DNA of 64,000 nt from Astrocystis sublimbata (Eukaryota; Ascomycota; Sordariomycetes; Xylariales; Xylariaceae): assembly GCA_022453515.1 (NCBI GenBank), contig JAJNNY010000006.1, positions 620,001 through 684,000 on the forward strand, read 5' to 3'. The position numbers and the translations under genes are program-made. Below are positions 8,390-29,753 of this stretch, piece by piece. Within the stretch, counting starts at the first letter, position 1, and each line of letters starts with the position of its first letter. Below the pieces are notes generated by a model. That model was not told the origin of the DNA and searched no databases. It saw only the letters and a program-made list of their open reading frames with translations.

Positions 8390-11300
8390 ATGGAATCTTC
8401 AAATACTAATCCTTCTTTTGACCCGCCATCCCACAACGCTGTGATCGTCAGACCTCTGGTATCGTCGACACCACACGAGCGCGAGAACATCCTTCGAGAT
8501 GTGGAATATAACGTATTCGCATTCCCTGCCGGCCTGGTCACGTGTGACTTTCTCTCTGACTCTGGTACATCGGCGATGACTGACCTGCAATGGGCCGCAT
8601 GTAAGTGCCTCCATTTTTAGTCTTATCAGGATCAACGTCCCCCATCGCCTTCACTTTTAACCTAGGTTTTGCATTGCACGAATGAAGAACAATTACATTC
8701 GATGTCTCATTGCACGTCTCATGGGATACGAACTGACCAACACTAAATAGTGATGAGAGCTGATGAAAGCTATGGGCGTAACTGGGGCTATTATTGCCTT
8801 TTGGATGCTTTCCGGGATGTTTTTGAACGTGGCAGCAATGGCGCGAAACACGTTTTTCGGGACGTTCTCGTTGGCATCGCGGATAGTGATTATTATCGTG
8901 GGAAGCTATTGCAGCCATGCGAAGGGGGGTTTGTGAATGGAGGAAGTCGTCAACTTGAGCATCCAAACTTTTTCATCGTGCCACAAGGTCGTTGTGCTGA
9001 GTTCCTATTGTTTTCGACCTTTCGGGAAATGATTCTGGAGACGCCCAAAGAAAACTTGGACCTACCACCGATCGCCATCAGCAACGGCTTCTTTGATACT
9101 ACGGCGGCCAGTAAGGATTCATCCTCCTCGCGTTCCTGCCACCAAAGCCCTACTACATGACTTTGGCTACGAAAAACAAGCATCTGATATCTAGACTACC
9201 ACAGACGCGACGGCTTCGGGTTTTGAGATTCACAATTTCGTCCAAACAGCACCGAAAAGACAGCCTGAAGGGACGAACCCCTTCCTAGGCAATCTAGATG
9301 TCGCAGCGGCTGAAGCTTTCATGGACAAGCACCCTGGTCAGGTCAAATTGATCTTGATCACGATTACGAACAATTGGGCTGCAGCACAGCCTGTATCAAT
9401 GAGAAACATCAAAGAAGCAGCAGAGCTAGGAAAGCATAAAGGGGTGCCCGTTTTCTTCGACGCCTGCCGGTTCGCGGAGAACTCCTGGTTTATACGGAAT
9501 TCGGAGTTTGGATACGCCGATAAACAAATCCTCGATATTATAAAAGAGATGTTCTCCTATGTTGATGGGTTTACTATAAGTTTGAAAAAGGATGGTCTTT
9601 CGAATATGGGCGGTGTCCTATGCTTCCGAGACAATTCACTCTTCGCCCAGCAATACACGAGCATAGGACATCGCTTGAAACAGCGACAAATCTTGTGCTA
9701 TGGAAACGACTCCTATGGTGGCAGTAAGTACCCCCCATTTATCTGGAGATTTGATTCCCTGACGAAATTATAGTGAGCGGCCGCGATTTGATGACAGCCA
9801 CTGCTGGCTTGTTCGAGGTTACAAAAGAGACTTATCTCTGCAACCGTATCTCGCAAGTTCAATCATTTGCGCAGAAACTGAGTGCTAACAATCTGCCGGT
9901 TGTTCTACCCGCCGGCGGACACGCAATTTATCTGGATATGGGCGAGTTCTTTCACGGTTGCAATCGACAATTGGGCGAGTTTCCAGCAGTGGGTTTCACT
10001 TTAGAACTTCTCAAGGAATATGGAATACGTGCGTTCGAAGCCGGCCCTTTCGCGTGGGAGTGGGACCAGAAATCTGTCGAAGAACGCGAGAAGATACCGA
10101 ATCTAGTTCGCTTCGCTGTGCCGCGACACGTTTTCTCGGATGCGCATATCGACTATACGGTAGCAGCCATCAAGGCGCTCTACGATCGCAGGCACAGCTT
10201 ACCAAACGTGAAGATTACCCGAGGTCAAGACATGATGCTCCGCCACTTCTCATGTGGAATGAAGCCCGTCCCTGTAGAGAAAGATATTACAGCGACAAAT
10301 CTCAGCGAAGCTAAGGCTCATCTAGCTCAACTATCTCGAGCTACTGGGCAAGATGAGGTGTCAAAGTCCAAGTTACTTCATGCTCTTCTCCTAGTAGCCG
10401 ATGAATGGAGCCAGGCAATGGGTCCGCAGTCTCAAGATCAATTCCATTGGCAATCATTGGCAACAAACAAATACTCGCCATTGGAATATTCCGTTGTACT
10501 AGACCAAGCAACTGGCGAAGCAGAACTGGGACTCCAGTTCATGTCGCATCCAACAGGCTACAGCCAGTCACAGATTCGGGAATGGGCTTTGCATCTCAAC
10601 GAAGCTATCTTGATAAGACACGGCGCAATGGTTTCACTAGACGTCATCGAGCTTGTTCGAGATATTCTGCTACAGAAAGAAGCCGGAAATACTTTTACTG
10701 CCTCGCATAACTGCGCAGTAAGAAAGACCGGGATCAAGTGGGAGATATGTCTCACACCCTGTGCGTCGCACAAACATGAGGTCTTAGCTTCATCTCGTAC
10801 GGTGTTTGAACGTCTGGGCATGGCTTATGAATGGGACCTGGTAGAAAGGAGCATGGCAACGACTGACTCGGTTGCGTATATCTCACTCGATCTGGTTCCT
10901 ACTAATGCCAACGCTCAGGTCGAAGTGTTTATCGCTCATGAAATGGCATCCGCAAAGGGTATCGCAAGTATGCATGAAGCTATCTGCACGAACACGTGCA
11001 CATTCGAGATACAACGATTCTGCGAGTCCATAGCGGGCTCCCTTGGACCGTACACGTCGAAGGCCCCCATGTCTAGTTTTGCATTTACGAGTGTCTCTGG
11101 AGACCGATCTTCGTCCGGCACGATTTACCTTCCGGTGGACGCCTATGCTAACAACGACAACGAAATTCAAGAGCGCGTCGAACGTTATATGACCGCCAAA
11201 GTTCAATCGCCTATCTTCGCAGAACGCTATAGGAAATCGGTCGGTGCAGTACAACGTAGGCCGCTAGCTCAAAGATGTGGTTTACATTCTTGGGTGAGTC

Positions 11301-11404
11301 TCGAGCAGTCAGTAGATGGCTCGCTGTCAAACGCGTTCTCCTTTTCAGCGGAAACGCCTGAGGGCACAAATACAAGCACAGACGAGGAGGTACTGGTGCC
11401 TTAA
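8390..11404 (+). CDS. Tryptophanase - ABBA/DMATS-type prenyltransferase fusion, 4 exons
   Basis: Exons are 8390-8600, 8751-9110, 9205-9723 and 9774-11404; all phases match, giving 906 residues. Residues 1 to about 530 align along their length with PLP-dependent tryptophanase (L-Trp to indole, pyruvate and ammonia). Visible sites are DESY (72-78), QGR (149-151), FFDTT with the tryptophanase-type Asp186 (Thr in tyrosine phenol-lyase), DACR (D276, R279), the PLP lysine in SLKKD (K319), RFAVPR (R476) and LRHF with His521, which is Phe in tyrosine phenol-lyase. An insertion of about 45 residues (99-142) precedes QGR. Residues about 560-906 resemble DMATS-type ABBA prenyltransferases: PLEYS with the indole-binding Glu601, IKWE, SLDLVP, IYLPVDAY, RPLAQRCGLHSWVSL. 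Several basic diphosphate ligands appear replaced. Exon 4 crosses the junction uninterrupted, so the fusion is encoded as one protein. It is the presumed core enzyme of the surrounding cluster. Confidence 0.9.
8537..8547 (-). promoter_or_regulatory. 11-bp CACGTG word, copy 1 (inside exon 1 of the fusion gene)
   Basis: The sequence GTCACGTGTGA is the exact reverse complement of the TCACACGTGAC word found upstream of two cluster methyltransferase genes. It lies in coding sequence here, so this copy may be coincidental. The core CACGTG is the kind of site bound by bHLH or some bZIP factors. Confidence 0.3.
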
Positions 11405-11844
11405 AGAATTGTTGAGTATATTTGTGAATGGAAGCGTGCGGCCATAGCTCATGGTCAAGTCAAATGGAGGAAACAGTCGGGTCTCGATTGAGGGGCTAGC
11501 TAACATGACTCAAGTGAAAACACATCTTACCTAACAATCTACTCATTGTACGAAGGCCCTTGTTAGATTACCAATTGTATTTCTGTTGCATGATACTCCA
11601 ATCGTATGTCGTTAGTTATACAGCTCAATAACAACTCCTATTTGACTCACTGGGTTGGTTCACACGTGACATGGGCCATCGGCCAAATGACTCATCGTCA
11701 CGAAGCGAAGCGTGCCTAGTAGCATGATCTTATAAGCTATGAGAGCTCTCGGAGCGTTGTCGTCTTTTAAATGGTCAACTCGCGCGAAATTCACATTGCC
11801 TCTGGTGCCTCGAGTCTCAGACGCTGTCGAGATCATCTGCCGTC
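11405..11844. other. Intergenic: fusion gene 3' end and methyltransferase promoter
   Basis: No gene is supported. It contains the TCACACGTGAC word at 11660-11670, about 175 bases upstream of the next start codon, and a TATAAG box-like element near 11731. Confidence 0.5.
11660..11670 (+). promoter_or_regulatory. 11-bp CACGTG word, copy 2 (upstream of methyltransferase 1)
   Basis: TCACACGTGAC, identical to the word upstream of the second class I methyltransferase (18937-18947). It lies about 175 bases before the start codon at 11845 and is a candidate cluster regulatory element. Confidence 0.4.
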
Positions 11845-12642
11845 ATGATGGCTCAACCAAGCCCTGCAGACCCCTCTTACGATTGTATCCGTTATCTTCC
11901 GACAAATGAAGCTTACGACAGATGGGCCAGCGTTTACGACAGCGACGGCAACTTCCTGCAGGCGCTTGACGATTTAGAATTGCGAACGCTTTTCCCGCGC
12001 TTTCTGAACTCGATTAGATCACCCAAACCTTGGCGGCTTGTGGACTTGGGGTGCGGCACCGGCCGCAACACGTCGCTTCTGCTCGGTATCCGCGATAGCG
12101 ATATCGTCGCTCTGGATGCCAGCAAGGGCATGTTGGAAGTGGCCAAGAATCGGCTATCTAACACTAACTCCGATGCCCAAGTCCCAGGACAACGGCCTGA
12201 TGTTCGCTTTGAAGTGTTCGACATGCTAGCCTCCTCGTCGCCCCCCGCTTCTCTGATGTCTCACTCGGTGGATGCCGTGATCAGCACACTGGTTGTCGAG
12301 CATATACCGCTGCCCACATTTTTCGCGCACGTGTCGCAGATTCTTCGACAAGGCGGCGTCCTTCTCTTGACGAACATGCATTCTGAGATGGGCGAGATCT
12401 CACAAGCTGGTTTTGTGGATACTGCGACAGGCGAAAAGATACGGCCAACAAGCTACGCACACACCGTCGAGGAAGTGGTTGTGGAAGCAAGGAAATGCGG
12501 GCTAGTAGTAGAGTTGCATGATGAAAGATCGGGGATCACACAAAGGGCTGTCGACGAAAGTATGGTGGAAGAACTCGGGCTCAGAAGCGCGAAATGGGTT
12601 GGTGTCAAATGCTGGTTCGGTGGGGTTTTCCGCAAGCGATGA
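11845..12642 (+). CDS. Class I SAM-dependent methyltransferase
   Basis: A single-exon gene of 265 residues; two adjacent ATGs (11845 and 11848) could start it. SAM-binding motif I is VDLGCGTG (about residues 66-73), followed by motif II around IVALDASKGMLEVA and the post-I region VDAVISTLVVEHI, with LRQGGVLLLTNMH further on. This is the common UbiE/type-11 small-molecule methyltransferase fold. The N-terminal YDRWASVYD segment is typical of such enzymes. No substrate can be read from the sequence. Its place directly downstream of the tryptophanase-prenyltransferase fusion, in the same orientation, suggests it methylates an intermediate of the cluster product at N, O or C (inference). Confidence 0.88.
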   Translation: MMAQPSPADPSYDCIRYLPTNEAYDRWASVYDSDGNFLQALDDLELRTLFPRFLNSIRSPKPWRLVDLGCGTGRNTSLLLGIRDSDIVALDASKGMLEVAKNRLSNTNSDAQVPGQRPDVRFEVFDMLASSSPPASLMSHSVDAVISTLVVEHIPLPTFFAHVSQILRQGGVLLLTNMHSEMGEISQAGFVDTATGEKIRPTSYAHTVEEVVVEARKCGLVVELHDERSGITQRAVDESMVEELGLRSAKWVGVKCWFGGVFRKR

Positions 12643-20991: not shown

Positions 20992-22615
20992 ATGGCCACC
21001 GGAAAAAGAGTCGCTATCGTTGGAGCTGGTCCTGCAGGTGCCCTTGCAACGGACGCTCTAGTCAAAGAGGGCGCATTTGACACCATCCGTGTGTTTGAAC
21101 GACAGAACAAGATTGGTGGTACATGGTGAGCACTGAGCAGGCCTGAGATTCCTAGACATTAAAATGTCTGACCGAGTAATACCAGGCTCTATAACGATGA
21201 GCATGCTCATCGTATTCCTTCCCTAAGAGCTCTCATTGAGCACCGCGCGGATGCACCCGTCAGCATACCGTCATCTCTCCCATGCCAAACCGCCAAGGAA
21301 GATGTTGTCAGCTCTCCGGAGTTTCGATATGCGGATTCGGGATGTCACAAACATTTGCACAGCAATGTGCCACCAGTAATCCAGGCGTCTACACAGGAAC
21401 CCATTCCGCAGGTGGTTTCAGAGCACATGAAGGCGCAGCATGGCAAAGATGCTCCATTCAGGCATCGCGAGGTGATGCGGGATTGGGTAGAGAGCATATT
21501 CATCAACGGGAATAATATGAACTTAGTGGAACTGAATACCACACTCGAAAAGGCAGAGAAGGTCGACAGTGAGTGGATTTTAACACTACGCAGATCTACC
21601 CCTGGAGATGAGAACGATTACTGGTGGCAAGAGAAATTCGACTACCTTGTTGTGGCGACCGGGCACTTTTATCTACCATACATGCCGGCTATACCTGGTA
21701 TTCTCGACTACGATGAGAAGTTTCCCGGAAGAATCATGCATGCTAAACATTACCCCGAAATATCACACTTCGAGGGAAAGGTGAGGAATCCTATAACCCC
21801 TGAATTGAATCAGAGTATCTGACTCTATGATAGCGCGTGGTCGTGGTAGGGGGCTCGGTGTCAGCATTTGATGCATTACACGACATTAGAGGGGTTACGA
21901 GAGGTCCCGTGATATCATCTTTGCGAAAACCAAATCCAATTTACGGATGGACGCCTTTTAAACATCCGAGCATAGATATTCGATCGGAGATATCATCATT
22001 TGACTCGGAAACGGGACGTATCAATTTCGCAGATGGATCAACAGCCGACGATGTCGATTTGGTGCTCTTCGGAACTGGCTATGAGTTCAGCTTTCCCGCG
22101 ATACCGGACGTCAAGGTGAAAAACGGTCGAATCCCAGGCCTTTATGAGCACGTCTTTAGCATCGAAGATCCGAGCTTGGTGCTCATAGGTATGGTAAGCA
22201 CACACGTGAAGCGGAATTCACATCCCGGTTGATCTCATATTATTCTAGAGGCTAATTCTAGATACTGTAGGTGTATGCTGGCTTCGGTATCCGCGTCTTC
22301 GAGTGGCAAGCAGTTGCAGTGGCGCGCGTATTAGCCGGACGTGCGAAGCTACCTTCCAGAGAAGAGATGAGAAAATGGGAAGCAGATAGAGTAGCCAAGA
22401 TTGGTGACAATGTTTCGTTTCTGGGACTGATTCCAGACTTTGAGGTACACTATGAGGCTTTGAGAGATATCGCAGGTGATCCTCAACCGGGAACCGAAGG
22501 GAGAGTCTTGCCGAAGTACGATCCAGCGTGGGGTGAGGCCTTTTGGGGAATGATCAAGTATAGGCAAGGGTGGTGGGAATCGGAAGCAGATAAAGCGACG
22601 AAAAGTGTTGTCTAG
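20992..22615 (+). CDS. Flavin-containing monooxygenase (FMO/N-hydroxylating type), 4 exons
   Basis: Exons are 20992-21125, 21186-21780, 21834-22193 and 22271-22615; phases join to give 477 residues. FAD-binding GAGPAG is at about 11-16 and the GGTW element ends exon 1. The FMO fingerprint FxGxxxHxxxY is FPGRIMHAKHY (about 224-234). The NADPH-binding stretch VVVVGGSVSAFD (from about 245) has Ser in place of one Gly, as in many fungal FMOs. The motifs VVATGHF and VLFGTGYEF are also present. The family oxidises nucleophilic N, S or C atoms with NADPH and O2. Bacterial FMOs oxidise indole, and prenyl-indole pathways can include one. Next to a tryptophanase fusion, oxidation of indole or prenyl-indole is the obvious hypothesis, but it is not shown by the sequence. 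Confidence 0.93.
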
Positions 22616-26615: not shown

Positions 26616-28718
26616 CTATTGTCTATTCGCCTTGGCTTTCCGCCGTATAGACTCAACGAGGCTACCAAGATCGTCTTCGGTGGCCTTTATCTTCTGTTTC
26701 TTGGGCTTGCCGCTCATCTCAGGTGGCGCATCAAAATCGCCCGACTTGTTCTTGCGCTTCTTGCGACCTTCCTCTAGCAGTTTTTTCATACCAGGAGTCG
26801 ACTTGAACTTGGAATTCGAGGGGTCGATAGCAAACTCGTGGCTCTCAAATACGGCCTTGAAACGGTCGTCGCTGACATCCATATCGAAGCCCTCCTGCAG
26901 CCCACCATGGTCCTCGCTTTGATCTTTGCCCTTCTTCTTACCCTTCTTGGATTTTCTCTTCTCAGCTTTTGTGATCTCCGCCATATCAAAATGATCGATA
27001 TGCTGAGCTTGATCCTTAGGGCCGCCCGCCATGATTTTCTCTAGTTGTGCATTTTGGGCAGCGTTTTCCGCCGCTGCGGCTTCCTTTTCCTCGCGTCTTC
27101 TCCGCCTCTCTTCCTTTCTTTCGGATGACTTGGACGGTTTGGGAGGTTCGTCGGTCATGAAGAAGGGATCGTCGAATCCGAGATCTTCCTCTGCCTCGTC
27201 GGGCTCTTCTGCAGCTTTTCCTTTCTCTTCCTCCCCAGTTCGTTTCAACACCGACTGCTCCTTCTTGCGAGCCTTCCGCTCACGCTCCTTGCGAATATAT
27301 TTCTCAACTGTCGTCTCTTCTGCCTGAGGCTCGTTCTTCTTCTCCTCGCCCATCAAGGCTGGAGTAAATGTGACTTGCATATCTCCCACGGGCCCGATAC
27401 TTCTTGAAGATTTAGCCATTGGTACCGCGCTCAGACCGAGGGCCTCCCGCAATTTCCTTGCCTTCAGTTCTTTAGAGCTCAGTACAGGTTCGCCTTTTGC
27501 AATAGACTCTTCAGCTACCGCATCCACGACCTCAACGTCGCCATCATCCTCTCCCTCGCTGTCACTCGCAAGGTATGCGCGGAAGTCATTCTCCTCTATA
27601 TCAGCCCTGCTGCCGCTGAAGGCCTTCTTCATATCTGCCTTCCGCGCTGCATCATCCGGGGCAATGTCCCAGGTCAACTTGACGCGTGAATGCTGCAAGG
27701 CATCTGTGACGAACTCGGTGGGTTGGTAATTGGGGACAATGGAGTCGCATGATTCCCTCGGCTCGTCATCGAATGTCACATCGTCAGGGACGAAGCGGAG
27801 GTCGACGAAGTTGGATGATGCGAGATATTCCGTACCATCACACGCAGTGTATAATTTCTCGGCGGTCGACACGTCCGAGCAATTGACGACCGCGTAGTAA
27901 TACCGTAATCTGTCGAGCTGATAGGATCGTAGGGCATCGCTGTCAAAGTCCTGATCGTCCCCTTCTTGCAACATGTCTTGCTTGATCTGCTCGTCTTCAT
28001 CGTCGCTGTTATCGTTGCTGTCTTCCGAGTCGCTAAACAATGCGCCGTCTGTTTTCGCCGCTTTTTTGAAAATCTCCTTGGGAGGGCCTTCAACTTCTTC
28101 ACGCTTCATACGCTCCTTGCCGAATTCTGACGGATAAATGGAGACTTTCTCGACGCGGCCGCCTGGCGGCGCGAAGGAGGAGAAGAGCACCATTAAATCG
28201 ACTGCCTTTATGTTGTCCCAGTCGAGGTTTACCACAGCAATCCTTTTGGTGATATCGCCAGTCTCAACATCGGCCTCCTCGTCGCGTAGCTGCTGCATAT
28301 TGGCTGGCTTTGACACAGCAGCCCCCCTTTCATCGTCGTCGGACTCGCTTTCGGAGGATGAGAAGCCACCGCCTCGGGCTGGGTCGTAGTTCTGGTCGGC
28401 TTTCTCGAGTTCTCGTCGAACGAGGTCGTCGTCATCGGCTGGGGCATGGTCCTCGTCGGGCTCGTAGATGTCTCGCAAAGCCTTCTTTTTGTTGTCGGAT
28501 TTCAGTTTGCGGCCATATCGGTCCAATTTGGCGCTGGCGGTGAAGTCCTCATCCTCGAATACTCGCTGGAATCGCTTGTCGATCTTGGTCTTGACTCGGC
28601 CCTTGGACGGCAGACGGTACCGGGGGTTGGTCTCGAAACTGGCAAAACGGGAGTCCTTCTTGGCTGCAGACGAAGGATCCCCCTTTTTCCTCTGGCCTTT
28701 CGGCACCTTTGTCGACAT
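26616..28718 (-). CDS. ESF1: ESF1 pre-rRNA processing factor
   Basis: An intronless gene of 700 residues encoding the nucleolar protein required for early 18S rRNA processing in the small-subunit processome (known from yeast). The N-terminus has the conserved RFASFETNPRYRLP and KTKIDKRFQRVF segments, DRYGRK, then an acidic SSSESESDDDE run. The RRM-like core begins ITKRIAVVNLDWDNI (about residue 155) and continues through VEKVSIYPSEFG and LRFVPDDVTFDDEP. Acidic and KERERKARKKE charged regions follow. The C-terminal NUC153 motif is DDRFKAVFESHEFAIDPSNS with KFKSTPGMKKLLEEGR. This is a conserved housekeeping gene and marks the right boundary of the biosynthetic cluster. Confidence 0.96.
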   Translation of the reverse strand: MSTKVPKGQRKKGDPSSAAKKDSRFASFETNPRYRLPSKGRVKTKIDKRFQRVFEDEDFTASAKLDRYGRKLKSDNKKKALRDIYEPDEDHAPADDDDLVRRELEKADQNYDPARGGGFSSSESESDDDERGAAVSKPANMQQLRDEEADVETGDITKRIAVVNLDWDNIKAVDLMVLFSSFAPPGGRVEKVSIYPSEFGKERMKREEVEGPPKEIFKKAAKTDGALFSDSEDSNDNSDDEDEQIKQDMLQEGDDQDFDSDALRSYQLDRLRYYYAVVNCSDVSTAEKLYTACDGTEYLASSNFVDLRFVPDDVTFDDEPRESCDSIVPNYQPTEFVTDALQHSRVKLTWDIAPDDAARKADMKKAFSGSRADIEENDFRAYLASDSEGEDDGDVEVVDAVAEESIAKGEPVLSSKELKARKLREALGLSAVPMAKSSRSIGPVGDMQVTFTPALMGEEKKNEPQAEETTVEKYIRKERERKARKKEQSVLKRTGEEEKGKAAEEPDEAEEDLGFDDPFFMTDEPPKPSKSSERKEERRRRREEKEAAAAENAAQNAQLEKIMAGGPKDQAQHIDHFDMAEITKAEKRKSKKGKKKGKDQSEDHGGLQEGFDMDVSDDRFKAVFESHEFAIDPSNSKFKSTPGMKKLLEEGRKKRKNKSGDFDAPPEMSGKPKKQKIKATEDDLGSLVESIRRKAKANRQ

Positions 28719-29753
28719 TTCTAATGGAGATTTGGCTTTCGATGTATCAGAGGCCTATGGGCAGTTTGACGAGGATGCAGCTGCAATTGCGATTGATGAT
28801 GGGTCCACTGAATAAAAGTTTAAGTGGAGCGCCCGTTTTCTGCCATGCACCAAGCCCGGTTCAGCGATCCCACCTTGACCGCCTTTCACAATTAGATCGA
28901 GAAACCTTGACGGGAGGCGGCGGGGAGCTTGCCTAGGGACGCCCCTTCGTACCAACCGCCCATTATAATTAGGTCGGTTCTAGGGCTGATGCCCGTCACA
29001 TTACTGGCCATCATTCATTACCCGTACATGACATGCCCCAGTCCCGCCAGTTTGCCTGCATCCACAGCCCACCCAGGTTGTACTAAAGCTCAACTTTACC
29101 AACACGAACACCTCGCATTTCTCATATATCATGCCCTCATGCAGTGAAAGAAACCCGTGAATTGAGTCATTTGGAAAAGGTACGAGAGAGAAAGAGAGAG
29201 AAAAAGAGAATAAAAGCTGTAGACTTGAGGGATGTGTTATGTTTTCTTGACAATAATTAGGTACCCAAACAAGTATCTACCAAGGTAATTATGCGGTTGC
29301 AAGACTGCCCACCATAGAGGGACCAGGACCGCCCCCTGATGTCATGAGGAGGTAGTTGAAGACATTGACTTGATGTACCGGTACCTGTGCTGAGATCGCC
29401 AAGCTGCGATGGTCACACACGCAACAGAACCATAGGGCTGGGTATGGGTACTTCCTGCGTAGTACGTAGTACAGTTTCAGCGAACAACGGGAATAGCCTA
29501 TGAAGACAAAAAAGAGTGGTGTGAATAGCGCGGGTGACGCTAGCATTATGCTCCTGTCAGACGCAAACCGCTCCCTTTCTTGCCGAGTGCTGTTGATTAT
29601 AACCTCCTCAGTGCCACCCATTTCTCCACGTCAGTTTTTGGAAATCTGCAAACTTATTCACCGGCCTTGAAATCTAAGCACCATCCATTATTGGCATTGC
29701 AATTTGTGTAGTATCGACGAAACAACGGTCTCCGAGGGGCAGCAGTGGTCAAT
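28719..29753. other. Intergenic between divergent ESF1 and phospholipase D genes
   Basis: Shared promoter region. It contains a purine-rich GAGAGAAAGAGAGAGAAAAAG tract near 29184-29210 (described in part). No coding sequence is supported. Confidence 0.5.

Follow-up and report, generated by a model that had tools for sequence, protein, structure and literature searches.

A fungal tryptophanase fused to a prenyltransferase barrel in which most dimethylallyl diphosphate-binding residues are altered

Gene structure and domain architecture

The stretch of DNA analysed here (the window) comprises 64,000 nucleotides of Astrocystis sublimbata and contains, at 8390-11404 on the forward strand, a gene that encodes a tryptophanase and a prenyltransferase barrel in one protein. 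Four exons of 211, 360, 519 and 1631 nt, separated by three GT-AG introns of 150, 94 and 50 nt, are spliced to 906 codons plus a stop codon, and exons 2 to 4 are each entered in phase 1. Of the splice-site combinations in the donor and acceptor ranges scanned, 25 preserve the frame, and the selected one was preferred because it restores the tryptophanase motifs at every junction. The spliced product is identical letter for letter to the NCBI protein “beta-eliminating lyase [Astrocystis sublimbata]” (P0001 in the following), which bears out the four exons with matching phases and the 906 residues proposed by a preceding sequence-only reading of this DNA.

Exon 1 (8390..8600, ATG at 8390) encodes residues 1-71 and matches P0001. 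Exon 2 (8751..9110) covers residues 71-191 with Y78, the QGR motif at 149-151 and D186, and exon 3 (9205..9723) covers residues 191-364 with N247, D276/R279, the pyridoxal phosphate (PLP) lysine K319 (codon 9588-9590) and Y361. The lyase tail, the linker and the prenyltransferase barrel are all encoded by exon 4 (9774..11404; residues 364-906 and the stop) in one uninterrupted frame. At the domain level, the tryptophanase half extends over 8432..10279 (residues 15-532) and includes the three introns, and the barrel (ABBA) domain with its ten strands extends over 10289..11362 (residues 536-893); these features, and the codons given below, lie on the forward strand.

The fusion of both domains in one fungal protein is confirmed. 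A gene-calling artefact, which the sequence-only reading had already argued against, is ruled out: exon 4 runs stop-free across the junction and dozens of listed proteins share the architecture. In the homologue search behind this list 7998 candidates were scored and 1202 proteins found, of which 120 were listed; 75 of the 120 are of fusion length (at least 780 residues) and are referred to as long homologues. The architecture is already present in public databases, where both Pfam families are noted on many entries, P0001 not being among them.

In a Pfam search of the 906-residue protein, the expected Beta_elim_lyase family was found at residues 53-493 (E 1.3e-47). The DMATS family, expected as well, stayed below its curated cut-off of 25, with Trp_DMAT (PF11991) at residues 566-625 reaching E 5.2e-5 and 23.2 bits; PF11991 is annotated on many other fusions among the matches listed. 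A sequence search of the PDB returned tryptophanase 8sl7 (E 2e-132), CymD (7.7e-10) and the DMATS-type 6zrx (3.6e-9), and TleC and IptA are further matches of the prenyltransferase half. The AlphaFold model shows a tryptophanase fold (15-532) followed by the ten-stranded barrel (536-893) that is characteristic of the DMATS/CymD indole prenyltransferase family, in agreement with the ABBA barrel predicted for the C-terminal 350 residues. Descent points to the same family, as the fused prenyltransferase halves and solo prenyltransferases form one clade beside bacterial indole prenyltransferase relatives.

Active sites of the two halves

All eleven catalytic positions of the lyase are present in P0001, namely Y78, Q149, R151, D186, N247, D276, R279, K319, Y361, R476 and H521; they include the PLP lysine, the Asp/Arg pair, the QGR motif, the Asp and the His that had been noticed earlier. 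The beta-eliminating lyase fold together with K319 places this half among the beta-eliminating lyases. D186 and H521 were equated by motif with D133 and H458 of the Proteus vulgaris tryptophanase, the numbering being partly assumed, and Ala is found at position 453, which we take to be the position of Arg-381 in tyrosine phenol-lyase. According to PMC11301627, Asp-133 and His-458 of the P. vulgaris enzyme form bonds to N1 of indole and to each other, activity with tryptophan is undetectable in D133A, 1.6% of kcat is left in H458A, and Arg-381 of tyrosine phenol-lyase forms bonds with the phenol hydroxyl group. The presence of D186 and H521 and of Ala instead of Arg rules out a tyrosine phenol-lyase, and the earlier assignment as a tryptophanase is upheld.

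Position 453, in the ring pocket, is occupied by Ala or Ser in 72 of 75 long homologues; the 45 shorter listed homologues have Leu (20), Ala (15), Ser (4) or other residues (6). A small residue at this position could give space to a prenylated ring, but the pattern is no more than a hint because the sequences are related and the shorter set includes fragments of fusions and members of the fusion clade. Ala at 453 is also a difference from the bacterial tryptophanases of Butyricicoccus (8sl7), P. vulgaris (1ax4) and Escherichia coli (TnaA), which, unlike P0001, have no prenyltransferase barrel attached.

For the prenyltransferase half seven positions were scored, E601 and residues 616, 687, 689, 745, 747 and 749. 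E601, E687, C689, Q745 and F749 align with TleC E106, K187, F189, R248 and Y252, and E747 with IptA K207; for FgaPT2 we presume the residues Y189, R257 and Y261. According to PMC4786772, the phosphates of dimethylallyl diphosphate (DMAPP) are bound in TleC by R119, K187, R248 and R378, E106 is catalytic, and Y252, Y317 and Y382 shield the cation. In FgaPT2, R100, K187 and K259 are used for the DMAPP phosphates (PMC11443524).

P0001 retains the catalytic Glu (E601, corresponding to TleC E106 and FgaPT2 E89). The other six DMAPP or acceptor positions are altered: R616G, K687E, Y689C, R745Q, K747E and Y749F. Hence the phosphate-binding Arg and Lys residues and the shielding Tyr252 are represented by G616, E687, Q745, E747 and F749, a loss of most DMAPP-binding residues that the sequence-only reading had missed. 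G616 (10529..10531) occupies a position with Arg in 68 of the 74 long homologues that have a residue there (TleC R119, FgaPT2 R100). At E687 and C689 (10742..10750) Lys occurs in 71/73 and Tyr in 70/73 long homologues (TleC K187, F189; IptA K152, Y154), and at Q745, E747 and F749 (10916..10930) Arg, Lys and Tyr occur in 61/75, 65/75 and 72/75 (TleC R248, Q250, Y252; IptA R205, K207, Y209). If nine bacterial-type prenyltransferases are aligned with five of fungal or liverwort origin, positions 616, 687, 689, 747 and 749 are invariant (R, K, Y, K and Y), and the Arg of 745 is at least 90% conserved.

Changes at the seven positions are absent from 54 of the 75 long homologues; 14 have one and three have two. 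The heavily changed ones are four Xylariaceae, P0001 and P0025 with six changes each, P0007 with five and P0012 with four. K687 is altered in just two long homologues, P0001 (E) and P0046 (R), and three each are altered at Y689 and at Y749. Alignment A1 contains 52 fusions, of which P0001 departs from a larger share of the conserved prenyltransferase columns (17/66) than any other, but from few conserved lyase columns (3/243). Measured against 20 non-fusion prenyltransferases, 13 of 38 near-invariant columns are broken in P0001. P0025 (Xylaria) and P0070 (Mycena) follow with nine each, those of P0025 lying in the active site and those of P0070 outside it.

In the three other Xylaria fusions P0007, P0012 and P0025 the catalytic Glu of the prenyltransferase is replaced (K, Q and V, respectively) and several DMAPP residues are gone, with the lyase kept. 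Since P0025 stands apart from P0001 in the prenyltransferase tree, the damage seems to have arisen more than once. The mirror image of P0001 is seen in ten long homologues out of 75, including eight from Colletotrichum, in which the tryptophanase His (H521) is replaced by Val (P0058, P0059, P0062, P0068, P0073, P0074, P0081, P0083, P0087) or Leu (P0076) and at most one of the seven prenyltransferase positions is altered.

Distribution, origin and gene neighbourhood

The fusion is neither unique nor rare and is common to many fungi. The long homologues come foremost from Xylariales and from other Sordariomycetes (Podospora and kin, Colletotrichum, Metarhizium and others), and further from Dothideomycetes (Lentithecium, Corynespora, Massariosphaeria), Mycena pura, the liverwort Riccia sorocarpa and metagenome entries. 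A whole-genome search with P0001 revealed two fusion copies in A. sublimbata, the one in the window and a second one at C157:327789-330675 (P0023), in which none of the seven prenyltransferase positions is altered. A first pattern scan of genome contigs with alignment A2 yielded 29 pattern matches and no relatives.

R. sorocarpa has a fusion (P0043, on a contig of 31.9 Mb) with intact lyase and prenyltransferase positions, and a lyase-only relative (P0078, on a contig of 52.3 Mb). P0043 is found among fungi in the prenyltransferase tree, and placing it outside is only marginally rejected in the approximately unbiased (AU) test (p 0.049), with the group named after the tree was seen.

In a prenyltransferase tree of 62 rows the fusion and solo prenyltransferases form one group (Shimodaira-Hasegawa-like approximate likelihood ratio test, SH-aLRT, 99), which adjoins prenyltransferases of cyanobacteria, myxobacteria, a Streptomyces and other entries. 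The A. sublimbata genome also contains five full-length canonical DMATS frames (L009-L013), located on C169, C185 (two), C173 and C168. They are far from the fused domain, in a separate clade (support 100), and the branches on the two sides of the root amount to 1.34 changes per column each; the tree rules out that the prenyltransferase half derives from these genes. DMATS1 (8db1), which we take to be fungal, belongs to the same distant clade.

Solo prenyltransferases of Penicillium, Aspergillus, Daldinia and Monosporascus are nested in the fusion group, and in three from Penicillium/Aspergillus that were inspected, different N-terminal stretches start just before the linker motif. Lyase-only fungal proteins (Fusarium, Colletotrichum and others) are likewise nested among fusions, although some may be short gene models. 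Because solo prenyltransferases and lyase-only proteins nest inside the fusions, the sequences indicate that fusion preceded fission. A late fusion from stand-alone fungal genes, i.e. the fusions as one clade with solo prenyltransferases outside, is rejected in a smaller, careful tree (AU p 4.7e-7).

In two of seven bacterial loci a tryptophanase-type gene adjoins the prenyltransferase gene on the same strand, namely in Nostoc (L020) and in a Polyangiaceae metagenome-assembled genome (L022). These pairs, a DMATS/CymD-type gene next to one of the tryptophanase type at L020 4191-7101 and L022 6001-8459, lie outside the published actinomycete clusters and show as two genes the partnership that the fungal fusion has in one chain. 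In the Nostoc lyase the counterpart of H521 is Tyr, and the Polyangiaceae lyase retains both Asp and His. With about 32% identity to the lyase half of the fungal protein, neither is its direct donor. The Streptomyces precedent named in the sequence-only reading is in print: PMC3617294 describes ‘Type A’ clusters of actinomycetes and 6-dimethylallylindole-3-carbaldehyde, with IptA acting on tryptophan, a tryptophanase encoded separately and 6-prenylindole as a likely intermediate. The IptA system consists of two genes, whereas A. sublimbata has one chain, and in P0001 the prenyltransferase half has lost DMAPP residues. Given the pairs in L020 and L022 and the Type A clusters, lyase and prenyltransferase are a recurring partnership that is one chain in fungi.

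The fusion is followed on its own strand by a methyltransferase reading frame (11743-12639). At greater distance lie a PHB-type esterase, another methyltransferase and, about 10 kb downstream, a frame whose FMO-like Pfam match is sub-threshold (21172-21819); the end of a YchF-type GTPase gene (2081-2701) and an ESF1-type gene (26619-28754) flank the fusion, one on each side. The second copy lies near FMO-like (L017 3527-4276), GMC oxidoreductase and FAD-binding frames. A comparison of window frames of at least 60 amino acids with 25.8 kb around the second copy matched only the fusion itself, and the two FMO-like frames did not match each other. As the searched stretches share only the fusion, no pathway was read from the neighbours.

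Functional interpretation

Based on the fusion, the folds, the conserved lyase residues, the altered DMAPP residues and the phylogeny, as taken from sequence and model, we consider it fairly probable that P0001 is a working tryptophanase with a folded, catalytically dead prenyltransferase. It belongs to an old family of fungal fusions, the intact ones of which probably produce prenylindole. The lyase half would convert L-tryptophan to indole, pyruvate and ammonia in a PLP-dependent manner. The barrel would be folded, would no longer bind DMAPP properly or transfer a prenyl group, and would be inert or re-used, so that P0001 probably just makes indole. We infer that the lyase acts on tryptophan, that the prenyltransferase half is inactive and that the intact relatives yield prenylindole, their activities being probable by homology. 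In these intact members, including P0023, the barrel may prenylate tryptophan with DMAPP before the lyase frees prenylindole, or the lyase may free indole first and the barrel prenylate it. In either order prenylindole would arise from one chain, as in Streptomyces from an IptA-type prenyltransferase and a separate tryptophanase.

Several observations weigh against a dead barrel or a working lyase. R745 is altered in 14 of the 75 long homologues (13 besides P0001) and K747 in 10 (nine besides P0001), some of them otherwise intact, and these two positions therefore weigh less; R616 is altered in six (five besides P0001). The nearest relatives P0002-P0006 carry K747G and keep the other six positions. 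The equivalence of R616 and TleC R119 comes from the family consensus, the pairwise alignment being off by two there, and TleC R378, Y317 and Y382 have no safe mapping onto P0001. The barrel is modelled with a predicted local distance difference test score (pLDDT) of 84-96 in most ten-residue blocks, with dips at 571-600 and 621-630, and K793, R831 and R859 are retained together with the catalytic Glu; given these residues and the confident model, some residual or altered chemistry in the barrel is conceivable. In the lyase, residues 51-80, including Y78, are poorly modelled (pLDDT 39-53). Finally, an exceptional acceleration of the whole prenyltransferase domain is not borne out, since the ratio of prenyltransferase to lyase branch length of P0001 is 2.9 compared to a median of 2.05, 9th of 52 (fixed topology; 0.01 added to each length).

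The sequence-only reading had proposed that P0001 channels tryptophan to prenylindole with both halves active. The maintained reading frame, the folded barrel with its Glu, the six positions kept in P0002-P0006 and the variation of R745 and K747 in apparently intact relatives are in line with this. However, K687E and K747E reverse the charge, R616G and R745Q take away phosphate ligands named for TleC and FgaPT2, and Y749F and Y689C are altered in addition. With G, E, Q and F at the equivalents of TleC R119, K187, R248 and Y252, prenyl transfer appears unlikely from the residues, and we regard joint activity as improbable. Of the earlier interpretation the fusion, the tryptophanase identity and the ABBA domain therefore stand, and prenylindole channelling by P0001 does not.

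That the barrel has taken on a new role other than prenyl transfer, as a binding site for indole or some other ligand, as a regulator of the lyase or as a scaffold of the oligomer, is also unlikely in our view. The confident fold and the frame kept open over a long branch are compatible with it, as are the three Xylaria fusions that likewise lack prenyltransferase active-site residues and keep the lyase; yet fungal tryptophanases without a barrel exist among the matches listed. A more specific version, to which we give some limited credence, is a pseudo-prenyltransferase: the active site would have been lost more than once in Xylariaceae and the barrel kept as a folded domain, for example as a module through which the tryptophanase binds indole or is regulated, or so that prenyl-tryptophan supplied by another enzyme is cut by a lyase whose ring pocket is enlarged. 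That the half is an eroding remnant heading for loss, as in the barrel-free fungal lyases inside the fusion clade, would fit the lost residues but is very improbable, as it contains no stop compared to about nine expected if the whole branch were neutral; with neutrality confined to the last third, however, such an outcome would have a chance of about 5%.

Tryptophanase is commonly regarded as bacterial. The fusions described here form a broad fungal tryptophanase family with a bacterial-type indole prenyltransferase in the same chain, of which, in line with the sequence-only reading, no description turned up in the open-access literature searched. The family predicts that indole and prenylindole may be produced in many fungi and in one liverwort, and it offers a natural test of substrate hand-over between a PLP lyase and a prenyltransferase barrel. 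For such a test A. sublimbata holds a matched pair in one genome, the apparently intact fusion P0023 and P0001 with its damaged prenyltransferase half.
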